Source: a virus | DNA: 42,393 nucleotides | Virus record (IMG/VR): IMGVR_UViG_3300044675_006032 | Span: 1-42,393 of that record | Direction: 5' to 3' (one strand) | Shown: piece after piece, positions 712 through 29,516 of the stretch | Layout: each line of letters begins with the position of its first letter | Numbering within the stretch: position 1 is the first letter of the stretch | The notes under the pieces: model-generated | Databases searched by the model: none | Seen by the model: the letters and a program-made list of their open reading frames with translations, nothing else | Told to the model about the DNA's origin: nothing | Translations under genes and position numbers: made by a program

Positions 712-1231
712 GTTGTTCTCCTGTTATCGCCGTGAAATCGCATTTCTTTAACGCTAAAACTTGATCTGCATTCCACTCGTATTGGGATAGTCCCAAGTAT
801 GTCAGTGTCATTTGTTCAAGGATCCAAGCGTCACATCTGTCGTTGCCGTCTCCACCCGACCAGATTATCCCCGTTTTCGCGGAGATTGCTGACATTACTT
901 CTGATTTACCTGAGTTTCCTTTTCCTGTAGCAAATTTGGCTCTACAGGTTGGGGGTATGACCACTACTGGCACGCCTAGTTCGCGTAACGCGACTCTTAC
1001 AACGCCTCCTAGTTCTCCTATGGAGTGGGCTTGTGAATGTCGTGAGGCATATGAGTAGCCCTCTACCGCCACTATTTGGACACCAGCATCTTGGGCTAGT
1101 GCCAAGATTTCGTTCCTTATCTCTAGGAGTCGTTCTGACCCTTTGTTTTTGGATCGGATGCTCGTTGTCAGTCCGCCAATGCTCACACCTGTGCTTGTCA
1201 GGGAAAGGTCTAAGCCCATTATTTTTGTCAC
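704..1231 (-). CDS. ruvC: RuvC-like Holliday junction resolvase
   Basis: RNase H-fold endonuclease of the RuvC type, expected to resolve branched DNA in replication, recombination and packaging. From GTG 1231 the protein is 175 aa. The first catalytic Asp lies in MGLDLSLTSTG (D8), a Glu in VAVEGYSY (E57) matches the second acidic site, and DGNDRCDAW near residues 128-136 supplies the C-terminal acidic residues (D131, D134). The reading frame continues upstream to 1489, but that extension runs over the divergent glycosyltransferase gene and is Cys/His-rich noise, so I take GTG 1231 (ATG 1219 is the alternative). No clear Shine-Dalgarno is present. A TATAGT -10 box lies 12 nt upstream on the minus strand. 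Confidence 0.82.
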   Translation of the reverse strand: MTKIMGLDLSLTSTGVSIGGLTTSIRSKNKGSERLLEIRNEILALAQDAGVQIVAVEGYSYASRHSQAHSIGELGGVVRVALRELGVPVVVIPPTCRAKFATGKGNSGKSEVMSAISAKTGIIWSGGDGNDRCDAWILEQMTLTYLGLSQYEWNADQVLALKKCDFTAITGEQHG

Positions 1232-1242
1232 ATTTTTTAGAT

Positions 1243-1251
1243 TACTATAGT
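1243..1251. promoter_or_regulatory. overlapping divergent -10 elements around palindrome ACTATAGT
   Basis: Bases 1244-1251 read ACTATAGT on both strands. On the plus strand TACTAT (1243-1248) sits exactly 6 nt before the ATG of the glycosyltransferase. On the minus strand TATAGT (1249-1244) sits 12 nt before the GTG of the RuvC-like gene. One symmetric sequence could thus serve as -10 box for both genes. No good -35 is seen for either direction. Confidence 0.45.
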
Positions 1252-1254
1252 CCG

Positions 1255-2247
1255 ATGCGTAGAATTTTTGTGGTAATTCCATCTTTTCAGGAAGAAGATT
1301 TGCGTAACACGGTGAACAGCATTTTTGAAAATGCGAAACATCCTGAACGCATTTATGTCGGCATTTGCAATCAGCGCACGGATAACAAGGATTTTGAGAC
1401 CTTTGAGGAGTACGGTGACCGTGTTCGGTGTGTGGATGTACGTTCTCCTCGCCCACTCGGTCTTGGTTTTGCTTATTTTTCTGCGTCAAAGTTACTGATG
1501 GATGAAGAGTTCTTTATGCGGATAGACGCGCATACAAGAATGAAAAAAAACTGGGATTCAACTTTGGTCAGTTATTTTAGCAAAATAGAGACGGACACAG
1601 GTAGTTCAAAAATTGTAATAACTCAGTTAACTGGTGGATTTTATAAACAAGACATGAATCTAGCAGGTTTTATAAAACATGAAGATAAAGATGAATGGTT
1701 TCATGAAGGACAGCCACCAAATACAAGTGAATTTATGAATGGCAACTTAAGGCAGTTAAAAGAATACGCCCTAAATATTGAGCATCATCCGAATAATAAT
1801 TATGAATGGGATGATATCTCGTTGGCGAATGGCTACAAGGAAATTCATGGTGTTTCTGGAGCATTCCATTTTGGCGCAAGTCAATTTTTGACTGATTGCA
1901 GTCCTGATCCAAGAGTATTTTTTTGGGGAGAAGAACATACCTTCGCTATGCGTGCATGGACTCGTGGTTATAGGCTTTATGCAATAGATGTGAACACACA
2001 GTTCACTGCGGGTAAAACAGAGGAATATCTAGAAACGGTTGGTATTGATGACTGGCGAAATTTTTGGAAATCATATAGGGGGTTTACGGTTAGATATGAA
2101 TCGGGATCTGTGTCAGCGAGTTTTCCAACACATAGCGATCCCGACAACCCAGTTATTGAAATACTTTCAGGTAGGGAACTTGGTTTTTATGGAGCAAAAG
2201 ATGAACAGTCATATGCCGATTGGATGAAAAAACTCGGTATAGCCTAA
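1255..2247 (+). CDS. GT60-like (Skp1 GlcNAc-transferase type) glycosyltransferase
   Basis: A 330-aa GT-A fold glycosyltransferase. The N-terminus IFVVIPSFQEEDLRNTV is the nucleotide-sugar-binding beta1 with the Ser/Phe/Glu following it, VGICNQ is typical of the Skp1 GlcNAc-transferase (GT60) family, and FFMRIDAHTRM contains the DxH metal-binding motif (family form D-x-H) followed by the W-D pair. FFWGEEHTFAMRAWTRGY near residues 222-239 matches the conserved acceptor-side Glu-Glu region. The start is ATG 1255, 6 nt after a TACTAT -10 box, suggesting a leaderless mRNA; the open frame further upstream overlaps the RuvC gene and is not protein-like. Likely substrates are phage or host glycans or proteins; which is unknown. 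Confidence 0.82.
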   Translation: MRRIFVVIPSFQEEDLRNTVNSIFENAKHPERIYVGICNQRTDNKDFETFEEYGDRVRCVDVRSPRPLGLGFAYFSASKLLMDEEFFMRIDAHTRMKKNWDSTLVSYFSKIETDTGSSKIVITQLTGGFYKQDMNLAGFIKHEDKDEWFHEGQPPNTSEFMNGNLRQLKEYALNIEHHPNNNYEWDDISLANGYKEIHGVSGAFHFGASQFLTDCSPDPRVFFWGEEHTFAMRAWTRGYRLYAIDVNTQFTAGKTEEYLETVGIDDWRNFWKSYRGFTVRYESGSVSASFPTHSDPDNPVIEILSGRELGFYGAKDEQSYADWMKKLGIA

Positions 2248-12741: not shown

Positions 12742-12871
12742 TGTGGCTCCTATTTGTGTCTAGTGGTTACTTAATTAATAATTAGATAATAACTAAGGCT
12801 TCAAGATAAAGCAACCCTAATTTCGTAAAAATATACCGTGACATTGTGTATAAATGGGCTCTACGGGTGGG
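12742..12871. promoter_or_regulatory. AT-rich divergent regulatory region
   Basis: A 130-nt AT-rich stretch between the divergent genes starting at 12741 (minus) and 12907 (plus), including TTAATTAATAATTAG. It must hold the minus-strand promoter, for which several TA-rich -10 candidates exist. No open frame of note. Confidence 0.4.
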
Positions 12872-12900
12872 TTGTAATAATGAATGAGGCGCACTACACT
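12872..12900 (+). promoter_or_regulatory. sigma70-like promoter giving leaderless phosphatase mRNA
   Basis: TTGTAA (12872-12877), 17-nt spacer, TACACT (12895-12900), then 6 nt and ATG 12907. This is the most complete example of the leaderless arrangement in the window and the reason for choosing 12907 over ATG 12880. Confidence 0.55.
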
Positions 12901-12906
12901 TACGGT

Positions 12907-13419
12907 ATGGATAATATAAACATACCTAAAACATCACTAATCACCGAATTACCTACCGTAATGAACCTCAAGGAAGCACAGTTGAACTGCCGTGACTTTG
13001 ACGCAGTAATTACAGCAGGACCATCTAAACGGGAAGTCAGCGAATTCAGACACCCAATACATAAAGTCGTTGAATTCCACGACACCATGTTTGAAAACAA
13101 CGGTGGACCATCATATGAAAATGTTGCAGAACTCATTGAGTTTGGTGCAGGGGTTCCAAAACTCTTGGTTCACTGCCATGCAGGTATTTCCCGCTCTACG
13201 GCAACAGCATGGGGGGTGGCAATCGCAAACGGTGAAGAACCTTTGGAAGCATTCCTGCAACTACAACAAAATCACCCAAACGAAAGCAGTGTCTTTGGTC
13301 ATGGATTTAAGCGAACATTCGCACCCAACATCCTTATCGTAAAACACCTTGACAAGTATTTCAATCTAGGGACAACCCTTCTTGAAATCCGACAGAAGCA
13401 CACAGAGGGTGGCTGGTAA
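12907..13419 (+). CDS. dual-specificity/tyrosine phosphatase-like Cys-phosphatase
   Basis: A 170-aa protein with the Cys-phosphatase signature HCHAGISRS (HC-x5-R: C90, R96), which forms the phosphate-binding P-loop. An upstream Asp in EFHDTMFEN (about D59) is the candidate general acid, and ITAGPSKREVS at about residues 35-45 fits the start of a DSP-type fold. Family members hydrolyse phosphotyrosine, phosphoserine/threonine, phosphoinositides or RNA 5'-triphosphates; the substrate here is unknown. The next gene is an HDAC-like enzyme 4 nt downstream, and three kinase-like proteins are encoded in the structural block, so a role in reversing or reshaping phosphorylation is plausible but inferred. 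Confidence 0.85.
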   Translation: MDNINIPKTSLITELPTVMNLKEAQLNCRDFDAVITAGPSKREVSEFRHPIHKVVEFHDTMFENNGGPSYENVAELIEFGAGVPKLLVHCHAGISRSTATAWGVAIANGEEPLEAFLQLQQNHPNESSVFGHGFKRTFAPNILIVKHLDKYFNLGTTLLEIRQKHTEGGW

Positions 13420-13423
13420 GAAT

Positions 13424-14365
13424 ATGAAAGTATTTTGGAACAGCGACTACACAAACATTTCCCACGACTTTGACACATCGCGCAAATCCGACAATATTGT
13501 CGCGTTGATCAAAGAAAACCAAGAAATGCCATCACAGTTAAGACTGCATAAAGATATCCCAAATGTGGAAATCTGCGATCCTTACGCAAAGACCGATGTG
13601 GACGTCACCGAAGGTTTAATCAATTCTTGGCTAACTAAAAATTACGCTGAAGCACTTAGGACGAACAACAATAGGCTTCTATCTGAAAGTCAAGGTTTCA
13701 GATGGTGCCCCAACACTTACGCTTTCGCTCGTGCCCATGCGCACGGGTTGATCGCTTCGGTTGATGAGGTTAAATCGGGTGGCGGCAGGTGTGGAAGTTT
13801 GTCGTCAGGTCTCCACCATGCTTCTATGGGTTCGGGTGCAGGGTTCTGCACTATCAACGGGATTGCTTTGTCGGCGATCTACGCCCATGAGCAAGGTTTT
13901 GAGCCAATCATTCTTGACTTTGACGCCCACTGTGGCGGTGGGACAATGAACTTTCTAAACAAGTTCAACAATTCATTGAATGACGAACAAACACCTATTC
14001 AGCATATTGATATGTCCACAAATCATTTTGATTCCTATGAAAGTGACGCAAAGTGGTCTTATCTCAATGTTCGTGGTATCAACGATGATTATCTTGACTG
14101 TATTAAAGAAGCGCTTGAAATCGCTCGTCCATTAGTGACCGACAAAACCGTGTTCATATACAATGCGGGGATTGACCCAATGGATGCATACGAAATTGAT
14201 CAAGAAGTGATCAAACAAAGAGAGAAGTTGGTATCCAATTTCATTGGTGAAAGCAAGGCGATCTTTGCCCTCGCTGGTGGGTACTCTGGTCAAAATACAA
14301 CACGAGACGATGTGGCAAAAACACATCTTTACAATATTTACGGATGGGCATGGAGCCAGAAATAG
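13424..14365 (+). CDS. histone-deacetylase superfamily amidohydrolase (HDAC/AcuC/APAH-like)
   Basis: A 313-aa protein with the full HDAC active-site order. SSGLHHASMGSGAGFC supplies the His pair (H131, H132) and the G-F-C of the substrate channel. ILDFDAHCGGGT gives the Zn ligands D167 and H169 (family DxDxHxGxGT). NAGIDPMD (D251) supplies the third Zn ligand where HDACs have AGFDAHxxD, and LAGGY ends with the catalytic Tyr (Y287). It should remove acyl groups from amines: acetyl-lysine, acetylpolyamines or similar. Bacterial relatives include acetylpolyamine amidohydrolase and AcuC. Start ATG 13424 follows the phosphatase stop by 4 nt. Length is near the family norm. The substrate cannot be assigned. 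Confidence 0.87.
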   Translation: MKVFWNSDYTNISHDFDTSRKSDNIVALIKENQEMPSQLRLHKDIPNVEICDPYAKTDVDVTEGLINSWLTKNYAEALRTNNNRLLSESQGFRWCPNTYAFARAHAHGLIASVDEVKSGGGRCGSLSSGLHHASMGSGAGFCTINGIALSAIYAHEQGFEPIILDFDAHCGGGTMNFLNKFNNSLNDEQTPIQHIDMSTNHFDSYESDAKWSYLNVRGINDDYLDCIKEALEIARPLVTDKTVFIYNAGIDPMDAYEIDQEVIKQREKLVSNFIGESKAIFALAGGYSGQNTTRDDVAKTHLYNIYGWAWSQK

Positions 14366-14619
14366 TTCACGGGTTGTACGCAACCTACACAAACATTAAA
14401 TGCAGGTGCACGGAGTGCAAGCAAGCAGCCGCTGAATATATGCGTGCCTACAGGAAAACTAGTGCTGGTAAATCTCAGGCTAGGTTTCATCAAGTTGTCG
14501 CTAATAAGCGATCACAGATAGCCATTCAATGGGTGAAAAATAACCATCCGCAAGAGTGGGCTAAAATATGTGAGCAAGCATTACACGGCTTGGATAAAAG
14601 AAAGAACGGAGACAAATAA
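14350..14619 (+). CDS. small Cys-rich DNA-binding-like phage protein
   Basis: An 89-aa basic protein. Its start, IVHGLYATYTNIKCRCTECKQAAAEY, has the H-G...Y...C-x-C-x2-C pattern that I recall from a common small phage protein family with one zinc knuckle, followed by an R/K-rich helix (RAYRKTSAGKSQARF). No function is established to my knowledge. ATG 14344 is an alternative start; both overlap the end of the HDAC-like gene. Confidence 0.65.
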   Translation: MEPEIVHGLYATYTNIKCRCTECKQAAAEYMRAYRKTSAGKSQARFHQVVANKRSQIAIQWVKNNHPQEWAKICEQALHGLDKRKNGDK

Positions 14620-14867: not shown

Positions 14868-15452
14868 ATGGAATACAGCGGGAATAGTTCGCAAGAGGCT
14901 TTTGTCCTTGAAATGCTCGGTCACAAAAAGAATGGTTTTTATGTTGAACTTGGAGCGTTCCATTCTTCAGAGGGGAGCAACACATATGAACTTGAGAAAA
15001 CATATGACTGGCAGGGTGTCTCGTTTGAGTTGCTAGAGCAACGAAGGAACGAATTTATTGCCAACAGAACTAACCCTTGCATGGGGGACGCTCTCAACTT
15101 TGACTACATTGCGTATTTTGAAAACAATCATTTTCCAAAACAAATTGACTATCTACAGGTTGATATTGATACAGGCTACGACAGGGCTACACGCCCAAAC
15201 GGGAACCATTACACAACCCTTCTTGGTTTGATTACCATACCGTTGACTCAATACAGATTCTCGGTTATCACCTTTGAGCATGATGCGAATATGTATTTCA
15301 GAAATACTGGACAGAGAGACGCACAGCGCGAAATACTTGATTGTCTTGATTACACACTTGTTGCCAGAACAATACATGAAGATTGGTGGGTGGATTCTTC
15401 GGTTATAAGCCCTGATGTATACAAGAAACAGATGCGATGGGAAACGCTGTAA
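14868..15452 (+). CDS. FkbM-like SAM-dependent methyltransferase
   Basis: A 194-aa Rossmann-type methyltransferase. SSQEAFVLEML precedes the SAM-binding motif FYVELGAFH (about residues 24-32), followed by NTYELEKTYDWQGVSFE, which is the FkbM pattern (E-x-G ... L E ... G ... E). YLQVDIDTGYD near residues 98-108 is the motif IV region. FkbM enzymes O-methylate sugars or small molecules and are common beside glycosyltransferases in phage genomes. It overlaps the oxygenase start by one base (TAATG), so the pair is probably functional together, likely on glycan or surface structures. Confidence 0.8.
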   Translation: MEYSGNSSQEAFVLEMLGHKKNGFYVELGAFHSSEGSNTYELEKTYDWQGVSFELLEQRRNEFIANRTNPCMGDALNFDYIAYFENNHFPKQIDYLQVDIDTGYDRATRPNGNHYTTLLGLITIPLTQYRFSVITFEHDANMYFRNTGQRDAQREILDCLDYTLVARTIHEDWWVDSSVISPDVYKKQMRWETL

Positions 15453-16012
15453 TGGCAGATGGGGCATCTCTCCCTTTTGTTTATTTAACAAACTTTCTTT
15501 CAGAGTCAAATTTTCATGCCGTTCTTGGTCAGGCTCTCAGTTCGCATGGTGCAACGAGCGAGCAAACACCTCATTTGGTTAATCTTCAAAACATTGAAAC
15601 TTGGTCTATAGGCAAAAATATTGAGAGCCTCTACCCACTTCACTGTCAAAGAAAACTGCTCAAGATAAAAGGTGGGAATATCCTTGATTTTTCTGATAAC
15701 AGAGGGATGGACTATCATCAGGATTCTGTCCCCAATAAAGACTACCCCGATGATCCAGAGATCGGTTTTACGCCAAACGCTTCTGCTGTCTACTACTTGA
15801 ACGATGATTACGAGGGCGGTGAAGTGTGTTTCACTACTGAAAGACCACCGATTCAGCAAGCAACAGTTGACACCAAAGGATTAAAAAATCTATTTACGCT
15901 AAAACCTCAACCAAATTCGTGTGTGTTCTTTGATGCAAACTTGTGGCATTGGGTGAGACCAGTAACCAAGGGAAGAAGGTTCTCTTCAACATACTTTTTG
16001 CTAGTTGAATAA
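15452..16012 (+). CDS. prolyl-4-hydroxylase-like Fe(II)/2OG oxygenase
   Basis: A 186-aa oxygenase. The iron ligands are HxD in MDYHQDS (H89, D91) and the distal His in ANLWHWVRPVTKGRR (H166), with the 2OG-binding Arg at the end of that motif (R175/R176). ASAVYYLNDDYEGGEVCF is the typical P4H core strand. Family members hydroxylate prolyl or other residues, or sugars; phage members are common in aquatic viromes. The start at 15452 forms TAATG with the methyltransferase stop; ATG 15437 is a less likely alternative. Confidence 0.85.
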   Translation: MADGASLPFVYLTNFLSESNFHAVLGQALSSHGATSEQTPHLVNLQNIETWSIGKNIESLYPLHCQRKLLKIKGGNILDFSDNRGMDYHQDSVPNKDYPDDPEIGFTPNASAVYYLNDDYEGGEVCFTTERPPIQQATVDTKGLKNLFTLKPQPNSCVFFDANLWHWVRPVTKGRRFSSTYFLLVE

Positions 16013-20023: not shown

Positions 20024-20257
20024 TTATTCCGCCGTGTAAGGCATAGACATACCGTATTGTTCAAATAGTTCATCAATCTTTGAAGAATTCTCGCTATCCA
20101 TCAAAAACAATACCATTGATTCAAGATCTCCATCTTCACCAGTTTCGTCAGCGTATCCAGTAGCAATTGAAATAATCTTTGAACGCGTCTCCGAATTTTT
20201 GATAGTTGACAACAATTGGTCTTTTATTGAATTTTTTTGTTCTTCTGAAAGTTTCAC
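20024..20257 (-). CDS. small acidic helical protein paired with the 990-aa gene
   Basis: A 77-aa acidic protein (KNSETRSKIISIATG, GEDGDLESMVLFLMDS) predicted to be all helical. GTG 20257 overlaps the stop of the 990-aa gene by 4 nt (GTGA), so its translation is coupled. It differs from the other small partner proteins of the cassette. Possible chaperone, inhibitor or immunity factor for its large neighbour; inference only. Confidence 0.7.
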   Translation of the reverse strand: MKLSEEQKNSIKDQLLSTIKNSETRSKIISIATGYADETGEDGDLESMVLFLMDSENSSKIDELFEQYGMSMPYTAE

Positions 20258-23226
20258 GCGTTGCCCCTTGGTATTGCTCGTGCTCTTTGTCTCCGTGGAG
20301 CAGTTCCACCTATCTTGTTTTTAGCAAAAGAGAAAGTTCCACTACTAAACGGAAGATTGCTCTTGAACCAATGCTTAACAAACTCCCTGCGGACTTTGTC
20401 ATTAGCGGGATCATCAATAGCAAAAATCCAATCTTGGTGAATAAACTTTTTACCGCCACGAGTTTGAGCAATCATTGATTTGATTCTAAAATACTCCGCT
20501 TCAGAGTTAATCAAACCACCCGCACCAAAGTTTTCATAAAAAGATAGCGCTTTTTTGAATCCCCCTAGTCTGTTTTCGGGTATATTGCCACCATTAAAAC
20601 CAACTCTCGCCCAAACATATTGACCGTCATCAACTGCACCAACTTTTGCTTTACTGATACCAATCTGCTTTAAGAAAAGAAACGCATGCTGATTATAGAT
20701 TGTCTGTATGTCAGCGCCTCTGTCCATTTTGCTTCTCACGAACATGGTTGATTGTTTTACATATCCACTATTTACGCTCACGAGGCGACCGGAATCACCA
20801 ATTGCTGCACGAACAATATTCCCGTTTGCATCAATTTCATTGAATACGACACTCACGCTGTGCTGATCGTTGTTCCCTATTCGCACCGTTGCTACCGCAT
20901 TGTAAAGTTTTCCATTTGCACCCTCAATACGAGAATGACCATACGCTTCTTCTAAATACTTCTTTTTCCCCGCAAAGTCAAGCGAGCGCCATTTTTCTGG
21001 CGTCATATCCTCAAATGGTTTCTTTCCAGTACCGTAACGCTTTTCCATATACTTAGCAAGTTTTCCGCTACGACGCTTTATGGCATCGTCAATTTGTGAT
21101 TTGATCTTCTTCACAACATCTTCGTCTAGTGGTTTCACAACACCAGTTGCGTCAGGGTTGAAATTCAATCCTCTTTGAATTCTTTTTACTGCTTTGTCAA
21201 CTTCAGGTTCAAAACGATCATAATTCTTCAGCATCTGCTCGTATCGTCCAATACTTTCTTTCATTTTGGCAATATCTTTTGCCTTGCTGACGCGTAGTTC
21301 TTCCATTTGCGTTGGACTGAGATTTCCTGTTGGGTTCTTTATTAAAGCCCAAGCACTATCAACAGCGGCTTTGTCCCTGTTCAAAGCCTCACTGAGTTTG
21401 AGTCTGTTTAAAGCAATTCTTCGCACATAGGATGCTTGTGCTTCTTCAATTGTTTTTTTCAAATCAATTTGAGGATTGGCTTTATATTTCTCAATTATTG
21501 ATTGAAGCAAATCTTGAAAATCTCTTTCAGCAGCCATTCGACCCTGATTGTCATTAAATATCATTTCGTCAATATGCCGCCCAAAGTTTTGTAGATTTTT
21601 AGGGTCTTTGATTTGGAGCAATACATCTTCTACGATTTTTTCGTTTGCCGTAGAAAGGTTCGCTACGTCTATTTTTGCTGGTTTGAATACAAGTTCAGAT
21701 GGTGATTCATCACCAATGTTTGGAGGATTTGGTTTAACTCGTTTTGGTGTTTTGAATGGTGCGTCAATCGGGTCAATCGCAGGTACGGGAGCGGCGACTT
21801 CATCTTTGTTGGCATCAAGAATTTCCTGCCACGAATCGCGGTAATCCTTAATGTATGTCTTGACTCGTGCGATATTGATTTTTTCACCATTTCGTTCAAT
21901 GAAGTCATTGTCTGAAAGTTCGCCTCTGTCAATTGCTTGTTGTAGACGCTCCAACCTTGCGTTTGATGCAGTAATTTTTGCGCTTGCTTCATCCCTTTTA
22001 TCTCTTTTTCTGGCAGGAGTTTGCGGAAAATTGGCTGGATCATTAACAATCATTATTCGGTCATTTGGAATGACGTCACGAACAACATATTCTTGAAAAT
22101 TGTCGTCGTTCAACGCTTGATTCAAGTCAACTTTTCGTGCAGCCTTCCTTGCTCGTTTTCTTTTTTGTGCGTCAGCGATGGCAGCCAGAGCCATCGCCTC
22201 ACGGTTTCGCCTCATCTCCTCTGAACGAGCCGCGTTGTCGCTATCTCCGCGAGGTGCTGGTTTTGGAACCCTTCGCTGTTCTGATTCAGCGTTGAGCATC
22301 GCGCCTATGTCACCTTCAGGGTTTTTCCTAGGGCGACGAGGTTTAACAATCTTTGGCTCAACTATAGGTTTTTCAACAGCATTTTCTTTTTCTTGTTTTG
22401 GTGCTTTTGGCTTCTTTGTTGCTTCAACAACTGCACGGCGACGACGGCGAGCAGGTGCTTCGCCAGTACGCGGTGCACCGGGTTGTTCAATTTCACGATC
22501 CATGCGTCGTTGTTCTGATTCGCGTAGATTACCTTCACCCCTTGGCTGTACTGCACGCCGTCTGCGGGCAGGACGAGCAACAGCATTGCGTCGTTTCAAT
22601 TCCGCAATTACACGCTTGTAATCGTCGCTGTCTCTTCCGCCAGTAGCGTTTTCTAATTCGTCACGCATTTCTTGCAGAACATTTAGTGGTTCAGCCGCGA
22701 GGAGATTCCTATTGTTACGAGGCGGACGAGCAGGGGCTAATTCTCGTGGTGTGTCAGGTGCATCAACCGATGGTGGTCGAGCAACAACAGTTCGCCTACG
22801 ATCACCACGAGGGCTAGGTGCGTCTCCGCCGTCCAATCGTTCGGCAACGCCACGCAAACCTTGCTCAAGACGACCAGCGCCACCACCATTGGGATTAAGT
22901 CTTGCAAGTATCCGTCGTTCACGGCGAGCAATACGACGACCCCTACGAGCATCATCAACATTTTCCAAGCGTTGACCAATGTCAGATATTTGGTTTGCAA
23001 TCCGACGGGCTACACCCCATCCACAGGATCTACCAAAACGATCAGTTATTTGTCCACCGTAACGAGTACCAACTGGACAACGCCATCCACCGCGACGGTT
23101 GGTTCCCGGTATGGAAAGACTCGGATCCCACATAGCACGGACAGCCTTAACTTCGTAAGCCATCGTTGACGTGTTTCTTTCACTAAGGAAAGATTTTGCT
23201 TTAAAGTCAACAATGTTCTGAAGCAT
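20254..23226 (-). CDS. modular virion-associated effector candidate: C-x17-C module, disordered Arg/Pro linker, GNAT-like C-terminal domain
   Basis: A 990-aa protein. Residues 6-30 (VDFKAKSFLSER) and WDPSLSIPGTNRRGGWRC (33-50) lead to the C-x17-C module CPVGTRYGGQITDRFGRSC (50-68), then VARRIANQI and a coiled segment. Residues 110-400 are Arg/Pro/Ala-rich and probably disordered. Residues 400-730 are helical and charged. The C-terminal part (about 760-960) is a folded domain with YNAVATVRIGNN, GDSGRLVSV, FLFLKQIGISKAKVGA and DDGQYVWARVGF; the last two resemble the alpha-beta end of GNAT acetyltransferases and some phage toxin-like domains, which I hold with low certainty. The N-terminal half is nearly identical to that of two kinase-like neighbours, but this protein lacks the DRHxxN kinase motif. 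Confidence 0.8.
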   Translation of the reverse strand: MLQNIVDFKAKSFLSERNTSTMAYEVKAVRAMWDPSLSIPGTNRRGGWRCPVGTRYGGQITDRFGRSCGWGVARRIANQISDIGQRLENVDDARRGRRIARRERRILARLNPNGGGAGRLEQGLRGVAERLDGGDAPSPRGDRRRTVVARPPSVDAPDTPRELAPARPPRNNRNLLAAEPLNVLQEMRDELENATGGRDSDDYKRVIAELKRRNAVARPARRRRAVQPRGEGNLRESEQRRMDREIEQPGAPRTGEAPARRRRRAVVEATKKPKAPKQEKENAVEKPIVEPKIVKPRRPRKNPEGDIGAMLNAESEQRRVPKPAPRGDSDNAARSEEMRRNREAMALAAIADAQKRKRARKAARKVDLNQALNDDNFQEYVVRDVIPNDRIMIVNDPANFPQTPARKRDKRDEASAKITASNARLERLQQAIDRGELSDNDFIERNGEKINIARVKTYIKDYRDSWQEILDANKDEVAAPVPAIDPIDAPFKTPKRVKPNPPNIGDESPSELVFKPAKIDVANLSTANEKIVEDVLLQIKDPKNLQNFGRHIDEMIFNDNQGRMAAERDFQDLLQSIIEKYKANPQIDLKKTIEEAQASYVRRIALNRLKLSEALNRDKAAVDSAWALIKNPTGNLSPTQMEELRVSKAKDIAKMKESIGRYEQMLKNYDRFEPEVDKAVKRIQRGLNFNPDATGVVKPLDEDVVKKIKSQIDDAIKRRSGKLAKYMEKRYGTGKKPFEDMTPEKWRSLDFAGKKKYLEEAYGHSRIEGANGKLYNAVATVRIGNNDQHSVSVVFNEIDANGNIVRAAIGDSGRLVSVNSGYVKQSTMFVRSKMDRGADIQTIYNQHAFLFLKQIGISKAKVGAVDDGQYVWARVGFNGGNIPENRLGGFKKALSFYENFGAGGLINSEAEYFRIKSMIAQTRGGKKFIHQDWIFAIDDPANDKVRREFVKHWFKSNLPFSSGTFSFAKNKIGGTAPRRQRARAIPRGNA
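22453..22533 (-). repeat. shared GNLRESE..RMDREI segment, copy in the 990-aa gene
   Basis: Encodes GNLRESEQRRMDREI followed by QPGAPRTGE. A near-identical segment is encoded at 28875-28958 in the 890-aa gene; the 953-aa gene lacks it. Confidence 0.75.
22951..23160 (-). repeat. conserved N-terminal module, copy 1 (990-aa gene)
   Basis: Codes for about 70 residues including the C-x17-C module. Highly similar at protein level to 25811-26020 and 29241-29450, with scattered DNA differences mostly at third positions, indicating old duplication or recombination kept by selection. Confidence 0.85.
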
Positions 23227-23557: not shown

Positions 23558-26419
23558 CTATGGTCTTGCAAGACGAATCTCGTCCGCAGCCTCTTTCAGA
23601 TTTTTGAGATTGACTCGTATTGCTTGAATTGAGGCATCTATCTTGATTTTATCTGCTGGCGTAGCGGCATCCAATGAACCCCAAGCCTCTTTCATGTTTT
23701 CAACAATCAGATCAATTTGCTGTACTGTGAGTTTTGAAATTGAGTCTTGTATTTGCGCTAGTGCTGGTGCATCCTGTCGGTTGAACTGATCAACTGCGAG
23801 CATTCTTTTTGCATCCGCCTTGGATAGTTCTCTGATTTTTCCTACGCCGTTGTTGTAGATGCCATGGTCAATTGGGATTTGCTCATTTCCAACCCAGAGG
23901 TAGTTGCCTGCATGCCTATCGGGATTGCCCATAACGCGATCCAAAACTCGCACCATTCCTTGCGCTACTGGATCTATCTGATTTGGACGATTCCGTCCAG
24001 CCTTTATGTCACCGTCAACTACATCACCATAATGCTCTACAAGAATTGCCGCATTCCTAGTTATATTTCGGTGACCACGAATACTAACCATGTCTCCAGC
24101 AATTCTCACTCTAGACATCGGTCTGCCAAATGCTTGACCAAGCACCGCTGCGTATTGTTCACCAATAAATTCATTTTCAACAAAAGACGGGCTCTTTAGG
24201 ATATATTTTTTACCAGAAACAGCATCTTCCACTACATATGTTTTGTTCTTTTTGCTTCGTGACGCCCTGTTGTTGATTCCGTTACCCGGATCAGCCAACA
24301 ACTTAAATCGTTTTGAGATCTGACCAGCAGGCTCGTTCGGATAGTTTCCATTGGCAAGAATCGCATCTTTCAGGAAAGCATCTGGGACATCATCAAGATC
24401 TCCGCCATTTTTCACAAACTGATTTGCTTTTGCTTGTGTTGAAATGTTTGCGTTGCCCTTTTTCACTGCCTTGGGGACAAGTATTCCATCTATTTCAACG
24501 TGACCATGGTTTTTATTGAACCGTGACGCTTTGCTTTTCTTTATCCCTGCAACGTTTCGGTCATTGACTCTCTTCGCGGCTTCTTCGTCAAGTGAAACAA
24601 CATTATTTTTTGGTGCGTTTCTTACTCTCGGCGCTCTTGGGGGAGTTGGTGGTGTTGGAGGTTCTGGTGGTGTTGGCGAACCATCCCCCTGTGATGGTGG
24701 GGTAGGGGCGTTTAATTGTGCATTTATCCTGTTGCGAAGAGCGGTCAATCCTCCAGCAGGAACACCAAATTCTTCTCTGACCATTCTACGGTCTTGGAGT
24801 TGTTGGTTTCCTCTAACTGCCATCATCTGATCATCGTCTAATACATAATACGCATCACGACCAGAGGATTTTCCATTTTGCGTATATGCAACAACATGGA
24901 ATTGACGGTTCTCAAGTCTTGCGAGGCGGTTAGCCTTTTCTTTGGCATCTTCAAATCGGCTATAAGCAACACCAGTGTGGTCAAAATCTTGTGTTGGTTC
25001 AAGACGAGGATTCCTTGCCGCAGGGCGCACAGGTTTTACTGGTGCTGGTTCAGGTACATCATCAGGTGCGGGTTTCCGAGTTGCGCTACGGGCGGCGCCT
25101 GCTGTCGTTGCCTTCTTGCGACGACCACGGTTATTCCTTGGACGACGAGCCTGCGGTGTCGGTGGTTCAAAATCTTGTGGTGCGCTACGACCGTGAGCAT
25201 CTTTCCAAGCGTCACGAAGATTAGGTTTGTTGATTGCATACCATTCGCGGCGTGTCAACATTCCAGCATTTCCACCACCTGCACGGATTTCACGAACACG
25301 CTTAGCGTATTCGTTGTATTTTCTTAATACATATGGGCTGAAATCTTCTGATGCTCCTGCGTCTGATGCTTCGCGTGCTGTCAGTACATCAACATTGGCT
25401 GGTTGTGGTGCAACGCGTGGGCGTGGCTGTGGTCGTCGTTGTCCTGCTGGTGCAGGTCGGCGTGTAGGACGAGGTTTTGGCGCAGGTGTTGGCGCTGTTT
25501 CTGGAATAACATCGCGTCTCCTGTTTTGTGGTCGGCGAGCAGACGGTGCATCCACTTCTGCCTGTTCATTACCTTGCTGTCTTTCACCTCTAACAGCGTT
25601 CACAACTCTGCCAACATTGCTTGCATTCCAAACTTCGGCAGCGAATTCTCTACCTCCACCACGAGCCCTTCGTGGTTTCGGTTTGTCACCACCTTCAAGA
25701 CGATCAGCAATTCCTCTTAAACCACCTTCAACGCGACCAGTCTCGGGAACCCCACCAAGCCGTCTCATCATTCGTGCGTTACGACGGTCAAGGCGACGCT
25801 TTCGTTTGTCGTCATCTCGTTGTTCTAAGCGTTCACCAATGTCAGCGATTTGGTTGGCGATACGGCGTGCTACGCCCCAACCACACGAACGACCAAAGCG
25901 ATCGGTGATCTGTCCGCCATATCGTGTCCCTACAGGGCATCGGAAACCACCACGACGGTTAGTGCCGGGAATAGAAAGACTCGGATCCCAAATTGCTCGC
26001 ACACCTTTGATTTCAAAGTTGAAAGATGATTGGGTTTGATCAGAGATAAATGATGAAGCCTTAAAACTCAGAACATTTCGGAATTCTTCGTTTGAAAACT
26101 CAGAAAGTAAAACCTCAGATATTGACAGAACAGGAAGGTTTTTGGTTTCTACAATTTCCTGTTTAAGGAATGCAAGGTTTGCAACCTTTTTCTCTATCGC
26201 TGATCCTGATGGGCTTGGACCTTCAATAATTTTTGATGAGTCCATTGTTTGAACTAGTTCAGGTTTTGTTATAGGTGTTTTGCCATATTCTTGACGGAGA
26301 AATTTGGCAACTTCTTTAGCGGCTTCGGTCATTGGCTTGAAGGTGGATCCTTCAGGGGTCGTTGAGACGACCATAAATGGTGTGTTGTCGCGATTTTTGA
26401 TAATGAAAACTAGGTTCAT
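23558..26419 (-). CDS. modular kinase-like effector candidate with fused N-terminal partner domain (953 aa)
   Basis: A 953-aa protein. Residues 1-110 are an extra domain (NLVFIIKNRDNTPFMVVSTT) resembling the separate small partner proteins. Residues 118-180 carry the shared module with C161-x17-C179. Residues 205-600 are Arg/Pro/Ala-rich, including a run of PTPPxPP units. Residues about 650-690 hold KNGGDLDDVPDAFLKDAIL, a pre-kinase box shared with two neighbours. The C-terminal domain has a PI3/4-kinase/HipA-like catalytic core: Lys in KYILKSP (about 742), Glu in VENEFIGEQ, catalytic NPDRHAGN (D834) and metal-binding IPIDHG (D851). Phosphotransfer to protein, lipid or small molecule is likely; target unknown. 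Confidence 0.85.
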   Translation of the reverse strand: MNLVFIIKNRDNTPFMVVSTTPEGSTFKPMTEAAKEVAKFLRQEYGKTPITKPELVQTMDSSKIIEGPSPSGSAIEKKVANLAFLKQEIVETKNLPVLSISEVLLSEFSNEEFRNVLSFKASSFISDQTQSSFNFEIKGVRAIWDPSLSIPGTNRRGGFRCPVGTRYGGQITDRFGRSCGWGVARRIANQIADIGERLEQRDDDKRKRRLDRRNARMMRRLGGVPETGRVEGGLRGIADRLEGGDKPKPRRARGGGREFAAEVWNASNVGRVVNAVRGERQQGNEQAEVDAPSARRPQNRRRDVIPETAPTPAPKPRPTRRPAPAGQRRPQPRPRVAPQPANVDVLTAREASDAGASEDFSPYVLRKYNEYAKRVREIRAGGGNAGMLTRREWYAINKPNLRDAWKDAHGRSAPQDFEPPTPQARRPRNNRGRRKKATTAGAARSATRKPAPDDVPEPAPVKPVRPAARNPRLEPTQDFDHTGVAYSRFEDAKEKANRLARLENRQFHVVAYTQNGKSSGRDAYYVLDDDQMMAVRGNQQLQDRRMVREEFGVPAGGLTALRNRINAQLNAPTPPSQGDGSPTPPEPPTPPTPPRAPRVRNAPKNNVVSLDEEAAKRVNDRNVAGIKKSKASRFNKNHGHVEIDGILVPKAVKKGNANISTQAKANQFVKNGGDLDDVPDAFLKDAILANGNYPNEPAGQISKRFKLLADPGNGINNRASRSKKNKTYVVEDAVSGKKYILKSPSFVENEFIGEQYAAVLGQAFGRPMSRVRIAGDMVSIRGHRNITRNAAILVEHYGDVVDGDIKAGRNRPNQIDPVAQGMVRVLDRVMGNPDRHAGNYLWVGNEQIPIDHGIYNNGVGKIRELSKADAKRMLAVDQFNRQDAPALAQIQDSISKLTVQQIDLIVENMKEAWGSLDAATPADKIKIDASIQAIRVNLKNLKEAADEIRLARP
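25811..26020 (-). repeat. conserved N-terminal module, copy 2 (953-aa gene)
   Basis: Second copy of the module described at 22951-23160; here it lies about 110 codons into the gene, behind an extra N-terminal domain. Confidence 0.85.
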
Positions 26420-26843: not shown

Positions 26844-29516
26844 CTATGATCCTATAATCAAATCAGCAAGTCTGCCGGGGTCAACATCTGTTATATATTT
26901 CATTTTTCTTTGCGGTTTTACGCCAACCCTCAAAAGAGCCTGATCCCCACCCCTAGGGTTAGCGGTTCCATCCCCACCGGCTTTCAGTACATCTTCAACA
27001 ACATTCATATACGGGTTTTTACGCTCTGCCTCACGGATGGACTTCTGAACCTCTTCAACGGCTAAGAGTATCTCGCGCCGACTTATTTGCCTATCTTTGA
27101 ATTGCTGTCTCAATGTTGCAAGCATCTCGTTTCTTCTACCACCAACATCGTTGCCTAAAAAGCCTCGTAATCCTTCGTCGTTACCATCATAATTTTCGTG
27201 AGCCCGCCCACCCCAGTTGACATCAAACCCAAGAGAAGGATCAATTGGGACGAACCGCTTCTTACCACTGGAGTCAGTCGCTACAAAGAAGTTCCCTCCA
27301 TGGCGGTCTCTGTTGACCATGATGTAGTCCAAAAGTGTCGCTCTAACACGATCGGCGGGTTTTATTTGCGACACGGCTACTTGATTTCTTCCGTCTGTCA
27401 GCGCCCCATCAACGTAGTTCCCTGCGTGTTCATAAACAATAGCCCTACCAGCGCTGTTAGGGGCACCCGGTCCACCTTTTTGTTTTCCATCCATTCGCAC
27501 ACCACCGATAGGCATGCCAAGTCTACCAGCAAGATTATTGCCAATCACTTCATGAATGTCTTCGTTTTCTGCATGGGCACCACTTTGGTATTTTAAGAAA
27601 AACTTGTTTCCAGTGATGGCGTCGGTAAACATATGCATATTGTTGGGAATGTTGCCGTTAACACCACCACCAGCATCTGATTTAGAGAATCTTGTTGTTG
27701 CACCGTGTAGCGCTTCACCCAATAACTCATCAGGGACATCAGCCAAATCTCCACCTTTTTCTAGGTGGTCAATTGCTTGCTCCTTGGTATCCATACCTTT
27801 GTTCCCCAATGGAACGCTTTTCACATCAGGCAAACCGTCTTCACCTAATTTGTTCAGTTTTTCTGGTGCATGACCATCTTTTGCTTTTGGTGGTGAGACA
27901 TCCCATCCACCTTCTGGTTCTGGTATGTCTGCTGGTCGTTGTGGTGGTTGCGCTGGTTGCTGTACGCGTGGAGCGTTCTGGTCGTTGACATTATTATTTG
28001 GTACAACAACTTGATTTCGTTGCCTAAATTCAATAGCAGCATCAATTTCGGCAAGTCTTAATTCGGCAGCGGAAACTCCGTCTTTTATTTTTTCTTTTTG
28101 TCCCCACATTCGCAATAAATTATCTCTGGCTTCGTCTCTTTCCCGTTCGCTACCATTCTTTTTACTCTGCCAGTCTTCAAAGGCTCTATCAAATCCTGCT
28201 TGAGCCTCTTTGAGAAGTTCTTGATCTCTAATTTTCTTTCCCAAAACTTCTTCTTTGGACATGTTGCGCAAATTATTGTAAGCGTTCGGCTTGTATCTTT
28301 CAATTTCCCCTTCTACTGCTTTGACTAAAGCCTCGTCTCTTTGCTGGTCAAACTCCCTGCGGGGGTTTATGTCTCTTGCTGGCAGTGGCGGTGGACCTGC
28401 TCGTCGTGCAGGTGCTTCAGGTTCAGGCTGTGGCGCTCCTGCTTGTTGCCCAAATATTTGTTGGTTAACAAAATTGCCACGAGCATTACGCTTGTTGTTG
28501 TCATCGTAATACCGACCAAACCTTCTCTCTAGTTCGGCTTTTTCTTCGCCTTCAGGGAAGTCTGGTTTACGCCAATACGCATCTTCGGGTAGTCCGCGAA
28601 GATCGCCAAATCGGTTAACAACATTACGGATAGAACGATCGTCCGGTATGCTCCCTCCCAACTCGTCTGCTGTTGGGTTCCATGCGGGTGGTGGTGGAAT
28701 TGGTGATGATTGTTCCGCTGGTCGTTCTGGTGGTTTTGGTGCGGGTTTTCTGCGTGGCACCTTTGTCGGTACAGGTTTTGAACCGTCAACAAAATCTGCT
28801 TCAGGTTTTCTTCTAACAGTTCTTTTTGCGCCTTGTTGTGTAGCGTTTCGTCGGCGTCGTCGTGGAGCATTTGGTGCGGGTGGTTCACCTGTGCGTGGTG
28901 CGCCGGGTTGAACTATTTCTCTGTCCATTCTTCGTGCTTCTGATTCACGGAGATTTCCTCTTCTCCGAGGTGCCCGTGCTGGTTCTCTTGCTGGTTGTTC
29001 AGCATCTCCGCCAACAGGGATTCTTGGACGAGCAGGAGGTTCTATGCGTGCAGGATTTTGAACAGCGATTCGTGGACGAGCAGGAGCGCGTGGAGTAGTT
29101 ACTGGTTTTCCAGTTGCTCCACCATCTAACGCGTCTGCCAAACCGCGAGCGCCACGCTCAAGTAAGCCGGGTTTATCTTGACGAGCCAAAAACCGTTGCA
29201 CACGCGCATTCCGTTTTGCCAAACGAGCATTTCGTTTACGGTCGTCAACATTTTCTAGCCGTTCACCAATATCTGCTATCTGGTTTGCGATTCTCCGAGC
29301 AACACCCCACCCGCAAGACCTTCCGTAACGGTCAGTGATTTGACCGCCATATCTTGTACCAACAGGGCAACGCCAACCACCACGGCGATTGGTGCCCGGA
29401 ATAGACAAACTTGGATCCCAGAGAGCGCGAGCGCCTTTAACATCATAATTAAAAGTACTTGCAGTTTGCTCAGCGAGAAACGCGAGCGCCTTGTAATTCA
29501 CTTCATTCTTGAGCAT
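26844..29516 (-). CDS. modular kinase-like effector candidate (890 aa)
   Basis: An 890-aa protein. N-terminus NEVNYKALAFLAEQ and WDPSLSIPGTNRRGGWRC lead to the module C50-x17-C68. Residues 90-520 are Arg/Pro-rich linker, with the GNLRESEARRMDREI segment at 187-201 and a charged helical part at about 380-480. The pre-kinase box EKGGDLADVPDELLGEAL lies around residue 575. The kinase-like core has Lys in FFLKYQS (K642), Glu in ENEDIHEVIG, NRDRHGGN (D737) and VPIDPSLG (D759). The C-terminal tail ends DVDPGRLADLIIGS, similar to MTPKQLADIIVVP of the 617-aa protein. It abuts the 572-aa gene (TAA then ATG). Confidence 0.85.
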   Translation of the reverse strand: MLKNEVNYKALAFLAEQTASTFNYDVKGARALWDPSLSIPGTNRRGGWRCPVGTRYGGQITDRYGRSCGWGVARRIANQIADIGERLENVDDRKRNARLAKRNARVQRFLARQDKPGLLERGARGLADALDGGATGKPVTTPRAPARPRIAVQNPARIEPPARPRIPVGGDAEQPAREPARAPRRRGNLRESEARRMDREIVQPGAPRTGEPPAPNAPRRRRRNATQQGAKRTVRRKPEADFVDGSKPVPTKVPRRKPAPKPPERPAEQSSPIPPPPAWNPTADELGGSIPDDRSIRNVVNRFGDLRGLPEDAYWRKPDFPEGEEKAELERRFGRYYDDNNKRNARGNFVNQQIFGQQAGAPQPEPEAPARRAGPPPLPARDINPRREFDQQRDEALVKAVEGEIERYKPNAYNNLRNMSKEEVLGKKIRDQELLKEAQAGFDRAFEDWQSKKNGSERERDEARDNLLRMWGQKEKIKDGVSAAELRLAEIDAAIEFRQRNQVVVPNNNVNDQNAPRVQQPAQPPQRPADIPEPEGGWDVSPPKAKDGHAPEKLNKLGEDGLPDVKSVPLGNKGMDTKEQAIDHLEKGGDLADVPDELLGEALHGATTRFSKSDAGGGVNGNIPNNMHMFTDAITGNKFFLKYQSGAHAENEDIHEVIGNNLAGRLGMPIGGVRMDGKQKGGPGAPNSAGRAIVYEHAGNYVDGALTDGRNQVAVSQIKPADRVRATLLDYIMVNRDRHGGNFFVATDSSGKKRFVPIDPSLGFDVNWGGRAHENYDGNDEGLRGFLGNDVGGRRNEMLATLRQQFKDRQISRREILLAVEEVQKSIREAERKNPYMNVVEDVLKAGGDGTANPRGGDQALLRVGVKPQRKMKYITDVDPGRLADLIIGS
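28875..28958 (-). repeat. shared GNLRESE..RMDREI segment, copy in the 890-aa gene
   Basis: Encodes GNLRESEARRMDREI then VQPGAPRTGE; counterpart of 22453-22533 in the 990-aa gene. Confidence 0.75.
29241..29450 (-). repeat. conserved N-terminal module, copy 3 (890-aa gene)
   Basis: Third copy of the module at 22951-23160. The DNA keeps long matches around the GGATCCCA and GGGCAACGCCA stretches. Confidence 0.85.

Follow-up and report, generated by a model that had tools for sequence, protein, structure and literature searches.

A phage-encoded HDAC-superfamily protein belongs to a distinct family, many of whose bacterial members lie near ADP-ribose genes

The HDAC gene, its neighbors, and its active site

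The window (the whole stretch of DNA analyzed) spans the 42,393 bases of a linear virus record from IMG/VR, with recognizable genes for a terminase, portal, head protease, major capsid protein, primase, and B12-dependent ribonucleotide reductase. It also contains a WhiB gene (identified by Pfam), and WhiB genes have been used to recognize actinobacterial hosts (PMC6802176); the virus probably infects actinobacteria, likely Acidimicrobiia. Elsewhere in the window are a gene for a GlcNAc-family glycosyltransferase (PF11397, 2.3e-27; positions 1033 to 2247, plus strand), here carried by a phage, and genes for three paralogous long proteins on the minus strand (20254 to 23226, 23558 to 26419, and 26844 to 29516). 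The three paralogues have a common repeated module (GTNRRGGWRCPVGTRYGGQITDRFGRSCGWGVARRIANQI), with a DNA repeat of 203 nt that is 75 to 76% identical, and are possibly structural.

The gene at positions 13424 to 14365 (plus strand) opens with ATG and codes for a 313-aa protein that matches the Pfam family Hist_deacetyl (PF00850; E = 3.7e-17, 63.1 bits against a cut-off of 27.9), and the first-pass annotation was right to call a phage-encoded HDAC-superfamily protein with exactly these boundaries. Further IMG/VR contigs encode relatives with 63 to 97% protein identity, so the open reading frame is not a chance one. An AlphaFold model built with a 48-sequence family alignment (pLDDT 92.5) shows the arginase-deacetylase fold and matches many HDACs in the PDB by Foldseek (probability 1.00, TM up to 0.78), the top matches being Vibrio cholerae HdaH (VcHdaH) and Leptospira HDAC11; the protein had no hit in PHROGs, NCBIfam, or PADLOC.

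The HDAC start codon lies 4 bases beyond the stop codon of a gene for a DSP-like Cys phosphatase (positions 12880 to 13419, plus strand; 179 aa from the ATG at 12880, in an open reading frame that opens with GTG at 12838). Neither this pairing nor the ADP-ribose context of the family described below figured in the first-pass annotation. The DSPc match is weak, falling below the curated cut-off for the window protein and reaching an E value of 0.01 or less in 16 of 17 relatives. The AlphaFold model (pLDDT 84) has a DSP fold, matching DUSP5 and Tk-PTP in the PDB at E of about 2e-4, and together with a C-x5-R P-loop (CHAGISR, positions 13174 to 13194, plus strand), whose C and R are invariant in the phosphatase alignment, this identifies a DSP/PTP-type Cys phosphatase. 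A gene for a small 91-aa protein with a CRCTEC motif (14344 to 14619, plus strand) begins before the HDAC gene ends and is conserved at 22 loci, mostly at the same offset; where HDAC is absent, it directly adjoins the phosphatase gene. The small gene is followed by genes for an FkbM-like protein (recognized by eye, with no Pfam match) and a 2OG-Fe(II) oxygenase (14868 to 15452 and 15437 to 16012, plus strand), which form a joint optional insert downstream of HDAC in some relatives. A phage subclade (L115, L116, L122, L133, and L139) has a PAPS-reductase/DndC-like gene (by eye, SGGKDS) two genes downstream of HDAC.

The HDAC-phosphatase cassette is accessory and its two genes are separable, because just 23 of 62 contigs with a capsid protein at least 70% identical and sufficient flanking sequence carry HDAC (including all of those with the closest capsids), and three phage contigs (L305, L306, and L307) retain the phosphatase alone, directly overlapping the next small gene, in a natural HDAC-less state. 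A DSP-like phosphatase adjoins HDAC in 11 of the 37 viral representatives of the family. In one other phage clade, the position two genes upstream of HDAC is taken by a HAD_SAK_2-like gene, and ThyX also lies upstream.

The predicted active site was compared across 108 aligned family representatives (37 viral and 71 bacterial), and H131, H132, D165, D167, H169, D251, and Y287 are unchanged in all of them. These include the catalytic His pair H131-H132 (13814 to 13819), D165 and the Zn ligands D167 and H169 within DFDAHCGGGT (13916 to 13945), the third Zn ligand D251 in YNAGIDP (14174 to 14176), and the catalytic Tyr Y287 in ALAGGY (14282 to 14284), all on the plus strand. A search with the family profile finds VcHdaH at 3.4e-41, and in that alignment DSDVHHGDGT of VcHdaH lies opposite DFDAHCGGGT, placing G172 of the window HDAC at the second charge-relay site, the equivalent of HDAC8 D183 and KpHdaH N186. 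This column is Gly in 106 of the 108 representatives and Asp in L079 and L146 only; the relay residue is Asp or Asn/Gln in characterized bacterial and eukaryotic classical deacylases (Graf et al., PMC11532494). The usual RPPGHH is also replaced by SSGLHH (SSGLHHA in place of the RPPGHHA of other HDACs), and T18, K21, D196, D203, Y246, N247, R266, and H301 are near-invariant in the family and mostly unlike the control HDACs.

Judged by these alignments, no Zn-binding or catalytic residue is missing, but the charge relay is non-canonical. An earlier description of a complete active site thus stands for the His pair, DxDxH Zn site, third Asp, and catalytic Tyr, with no Zn ligand lost and no placement among inactive homologues in the alignment, but does not extend to the relay residue or to RPPGHH. 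Because the catalytic residues are universally conserved across the family, the protein is probably an active Zn-dependent deacylase. Its fold and Zn site place it in the superfamily, but we leave it outside the characterized classical deacylase classes (clusters 1 to 5 of Graf et al.), whose characterized enzymes are reported to conserve the relay Asp/Asn that it lacks.

The nearest solved relatives by fold are the cluster 5-type enzymes VcHdaH (9gkv/9gky) and Leptospira HDAC11 (9gz5), both at about 20% identity; VcHdaH is also the best match by profile. VcHdaH, a lysine de-decanoylase (PMC11532494), likewise has no RPP motif but retains the relay Asp (HHGDGT), where the family has CGGGT. Acetylpolyamine amidohydrolases (APAHs; cluster 4), including those of giant viruses (PMC9992855), have the superfamily, Zn site, Tyr, and viral carriage in common with the window HDAC but carry RPPGHH, score lower, and have another gene context. 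A survey of APAHs found viral examples only in Imitervirales and none in phages (PMC9992855).

Family distribution and phylogeny

An alignment-based profile scan of contigs recovered 135 relatives, where a single-protein query recovered none, and 74 IMG/VR loci are assigned to the family. Members score at least 198 bits and other HDACs at most 155 bits in whole-genome searches, barring short contig-edge fragments. In a quick-search, unrooted tree that has no cluster 5 sequences among its rows, a starred branch (99) separates the family from six control HDACs. By these sequence comparisons the family is distinct and patchily distributed. It occurs in 13 of the 296 Acidimicrobiia genomes searched. 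In the class to which the Gordonia query genome belongs, that query is the one positive among 297 genomes, and two further classes have 3 of 369 and 1 of 298.

Among deposited phages, Rhodococcus phage E3 has the one known member of the family (gp202). A tblastn search with three HDAC queries against 50,697 deposited phage records found about a dozen in all, some of which (Staphylococcus) may reflect host contamination. The proposal that HDAC-fold enzymes are rare in phages agrees with these deposited records, but 74 loci in IMG/VR belong to this family. The predicted viral structures in BFVD include HDAC folds from giant viruses and none from a phage protein, and no dedicated study of phage HDACs was found among open-access papers. 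An AcuC-type assignment of the window HDAC was rejected because there is no acu context, with neither an acu operon nor acsA (the cluster 2 context of AcuC) in the window or the family neighborhoods inspected, and because other HDACs fall outside the family branch; Magritte gp204 is an AcuC-like phage HDAC separate from this family.

Viral and bacterial rows are interleaved in the tree, with starred branches forcing at least six label changes, and phage sequences interleave with those of Acidimicrobiia. One viral clade groups with Acidimicrobiia bearing NrtR-ARG-vWA-ARPP-DSP (starred), and the clade of the window groups with another Acidimicrobiia set that has ARPP-1 neighbors (94, not starred). 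The E3 protein (AEQ21122.1, a "putative histone deacetylase protein") belongs to the same family, with motifs LSSGLHHA, DFDAHCGGGT, YNAGMDP, and ALAGGY and 34 to 37% identity over its full length, but it groups with a Rhodococcus chromosomal homologue (85) and, unlike the window HDAC, has no recognizable DSP-like gene beside it; on this phylogeny it is an uptake separate from that of the window. Four of the rows labeled bacterial (L021, L022, L024, and L027) resemble phage contigs binned in MAGs. Phages appear to have acquired members of the family repeatedly, with the direction of transfer read from the unrooted tree.

ADP-ribose genes beside bacterial relatives

Neighboring genes were counted within 6 kb of 95 bacterial family loci and, for comparison, of 40 loci encoding other HDACs in two of those classes, using profiles for ADP-ribosylglycohydrolase (ARG), vWA, NrtR, DSP phosphatase, ARPP-1 (a Pfam family named for ADP-ribose systems), and microbial PARG. 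At least one ADP-ribose-system gene is present at 37 of the 95 family loci and at none of the 40 others (P = 2.7e-7), and at 31 of the 95 it lies within 500 bp; after collapsing at 72% identity the counts are 26/71 and 0/34 (P = 7e-6). The seed profiles were picked from family loci, which favors the result, and this bias is partly met by held-out loci fetched once the hypothesis existed (8/13 family loci versus 0/20 controls, P = 9e-5) and by ARPP-1, which is found in 27 of 292 Acidimicrobiia genomes and in 7 of the 13 that bear HDAC, where 1.2 are expected (P = 3e-5). On these counts, the ADP-ribose context is specific to this HDAC family and is not a property of ordinary bacterial HDACs.

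The Acidimicrobiia locus L227 contains, by Pfam, consecutive genes for NrtR, ADP_ribosyl_GH+VWA, ARPP-1, DSPc, and Hist_deacetyl. HD_4 is an additional component at L239 and L050, and L023, L034, and L077 between them show NrtR-ARG-DSPc-HDAC, ARPP-1, and PARG_cat_microb. About 60% of bacterial family members have no ADP-ribose context at 6 kb. Five betaproteobacterial members (L049, L064, L081, L087, and L089) are beside PotD-PotA(-PotB-PotC) polyamine transport genes, and this subclade may act on another substrate.

ARG-centric systems, as described in the available text of Iyer, Burroughs, Anantharaman, and Aravind (2022, PMC9503650), are proposed to undo viral ADP-ribosylation and have phosphatases of alternating types. 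Bacterial members of the HDAC family sit with the NrtR, ARG, rhodanese/DSP-type phosphatase, ARPP-1, vWA, and HD genes of these systems, and the HAD_SAK_2-like gene beside HDAC in one phage clade is in line with the alternating phosphatases. That available text, figures aside, names no HDAC-type component, and a link between HDACs and ARG systems is provisionally unreported in the open-access literature.

ARG-centric systems have both ARG and NrtR, but the phage locus has neither. No ARG gene lies near the window HDAC gene, and ARG is absent from 28 of 30 HDAC-bearing virus records, so the cassette in phages represents a piece of the ADP-ribose theme and does not reproduce the system. The two records with an ARG match are the putative phages L152 (147 kb) and L157 (618 kb). 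The phage phosphatase is DSP-type, but what it has in common with the bacterial ones is weak: with separate profiles it amounts to the P-loop and the following helix (46 columns, about 25 bits). A strong cross-match came from a profile that contained phage sequences, and we do not propose that the phage and bacterial pairs share an ancestor; the two pairings may be convergent.

Proposed function and implications

The best explanation, to which we give about an even chance, is that the phage protein is a deacylase of a distinct HDAC family, acting in an ADP-ribose-linked removal of modifications and kept by the phage together with a Cys phosphatase. The bacterial HDAC would belong to, or accompany, ARG-centric systems (NrtR, ARG often fused to vWA, ARPP-1, a rhodanese/DSP-type phosphatase, and an HD hydrolase), and actinobacterial phages, probably of Acidimicrobiia, would have taken it up and retained it as a two-gene cassette; the phage probably owes the cassette to a host system for removing modifications, of which it captured a part. 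Zn bound by D167, H169, and D251 would polarize the acyl carbonyl, water would be activated by H131/H132, and Y287 would stabilize the intermediate. The HDAC would then strip an acyl group from an ADP-ribose- or nucleotide-derived molecule, the phosphatase would take phosphate off the same or a related molecule, and the phage would benefit from the canceling of a host-made modification or signal. The substrate may be an acyl-ADP-ribose-type metabolite or an acyl-protein: the partners ARG, Nudix, HD, HAD, and PARG make an acyl-nucleotide fitting, and the protein-phosphatase-like DSP, vWA domains, and HDAC ancestry make an acyl-protein fitting. Of the two, we lean slightly toward the nucleotide-type substrate, in which the acyl group sits on a molecule derived from ADP-ribose or a nucleotide. 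Counting against this, the known substrates of the HDAC fold are amides and not ADP-ribose adducts.

The pair could instead erase protein modifications, with the HDAC deacylating lysines and the DSP dephosphorylating Tyr/Ser/Thr of host or phage proteins, the bacterial ARG serving as a third eraser, and vWA presenting the modified proteins. This is possible and we entertain it tentatively, as the phosphatase model is nearest to the protein phosphatases DUSP5 and Tk-PTP, the HDAC profile best matches protein deacylases (V. cholerae HdaH and HDAC6), and chaperone-like vWA domains adjoin HDAC; however, likeness to a protein-phosphatase fold does not settle the substrate, no acyltransferase or kinase target is identified, and the replacements for the DSP in ARG systems include nucleotide-type phosphatases (HD and HAD), according to the available text of PMC9503650.

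None of the roles suggested in the first-pass annotation is favored. For a counter to acetylation-based defense, the analysis turned up no evidence. A polyamine role, which the first-pass annotation had also raised, fares poorly. It is improbable that the window HDAC is an APAH freeing spermidine or putrescine during infection, as the APAHs of giant viruses do, for it lacks the APAH motif RPPGHH, no polyamine gene is recognized in the window, and APAHs score well under the cluster 5 enzyme VcHdaH against the family profile. Viral APAHs are functional in Imitervirales (PMC9992855), and the betaproteobacterial family members end PotD-PotA-PotB-PotC operons, one of them followed by glutamine synthetase-like and aminotransferase genes, but these Pot-linked members are distant from the window in the tree, in a subclade of their own, and a pure polyamine reading was set aside because its operon support is confined there. 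It is very improbable that the protein is a diverged HDAC with little or no catalysis that acts by binding only: although G172 stands where characterized classical deacylases have the Asp/Asn that orients their general base, a non-enzyme would not need the Zn ligands, both His residues, and Tyr that are invariant in 108 divergent representatives.

Returning to the favored ADP-ribose-linked deacylase, a bolder form that we consider doubtful is that the family is dedicated to ADP-ribose-derived adducts (e.g., acyl-ADP-ribose) as an unrecognized ARG-centric enzyme, which phages would have captured and would carry, along with a phosphatase, as a counter-module to host responses based on NAD or ADP-ribose. 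ADP-ribose signaling and its removal are active fronts of phage-host conflict. The family represents an HDAC-fold lineage that, by alignment, has retained all Zn ligands yet dropped the charge-relay residue of characterized classical deacylases. A deacylase family tied to ADP-ribose systems, if true, adds an unexpected chemistry to them, and because phages have apparently acquired the family more than once, the pathway can be probed from the phage side as well as the host side.
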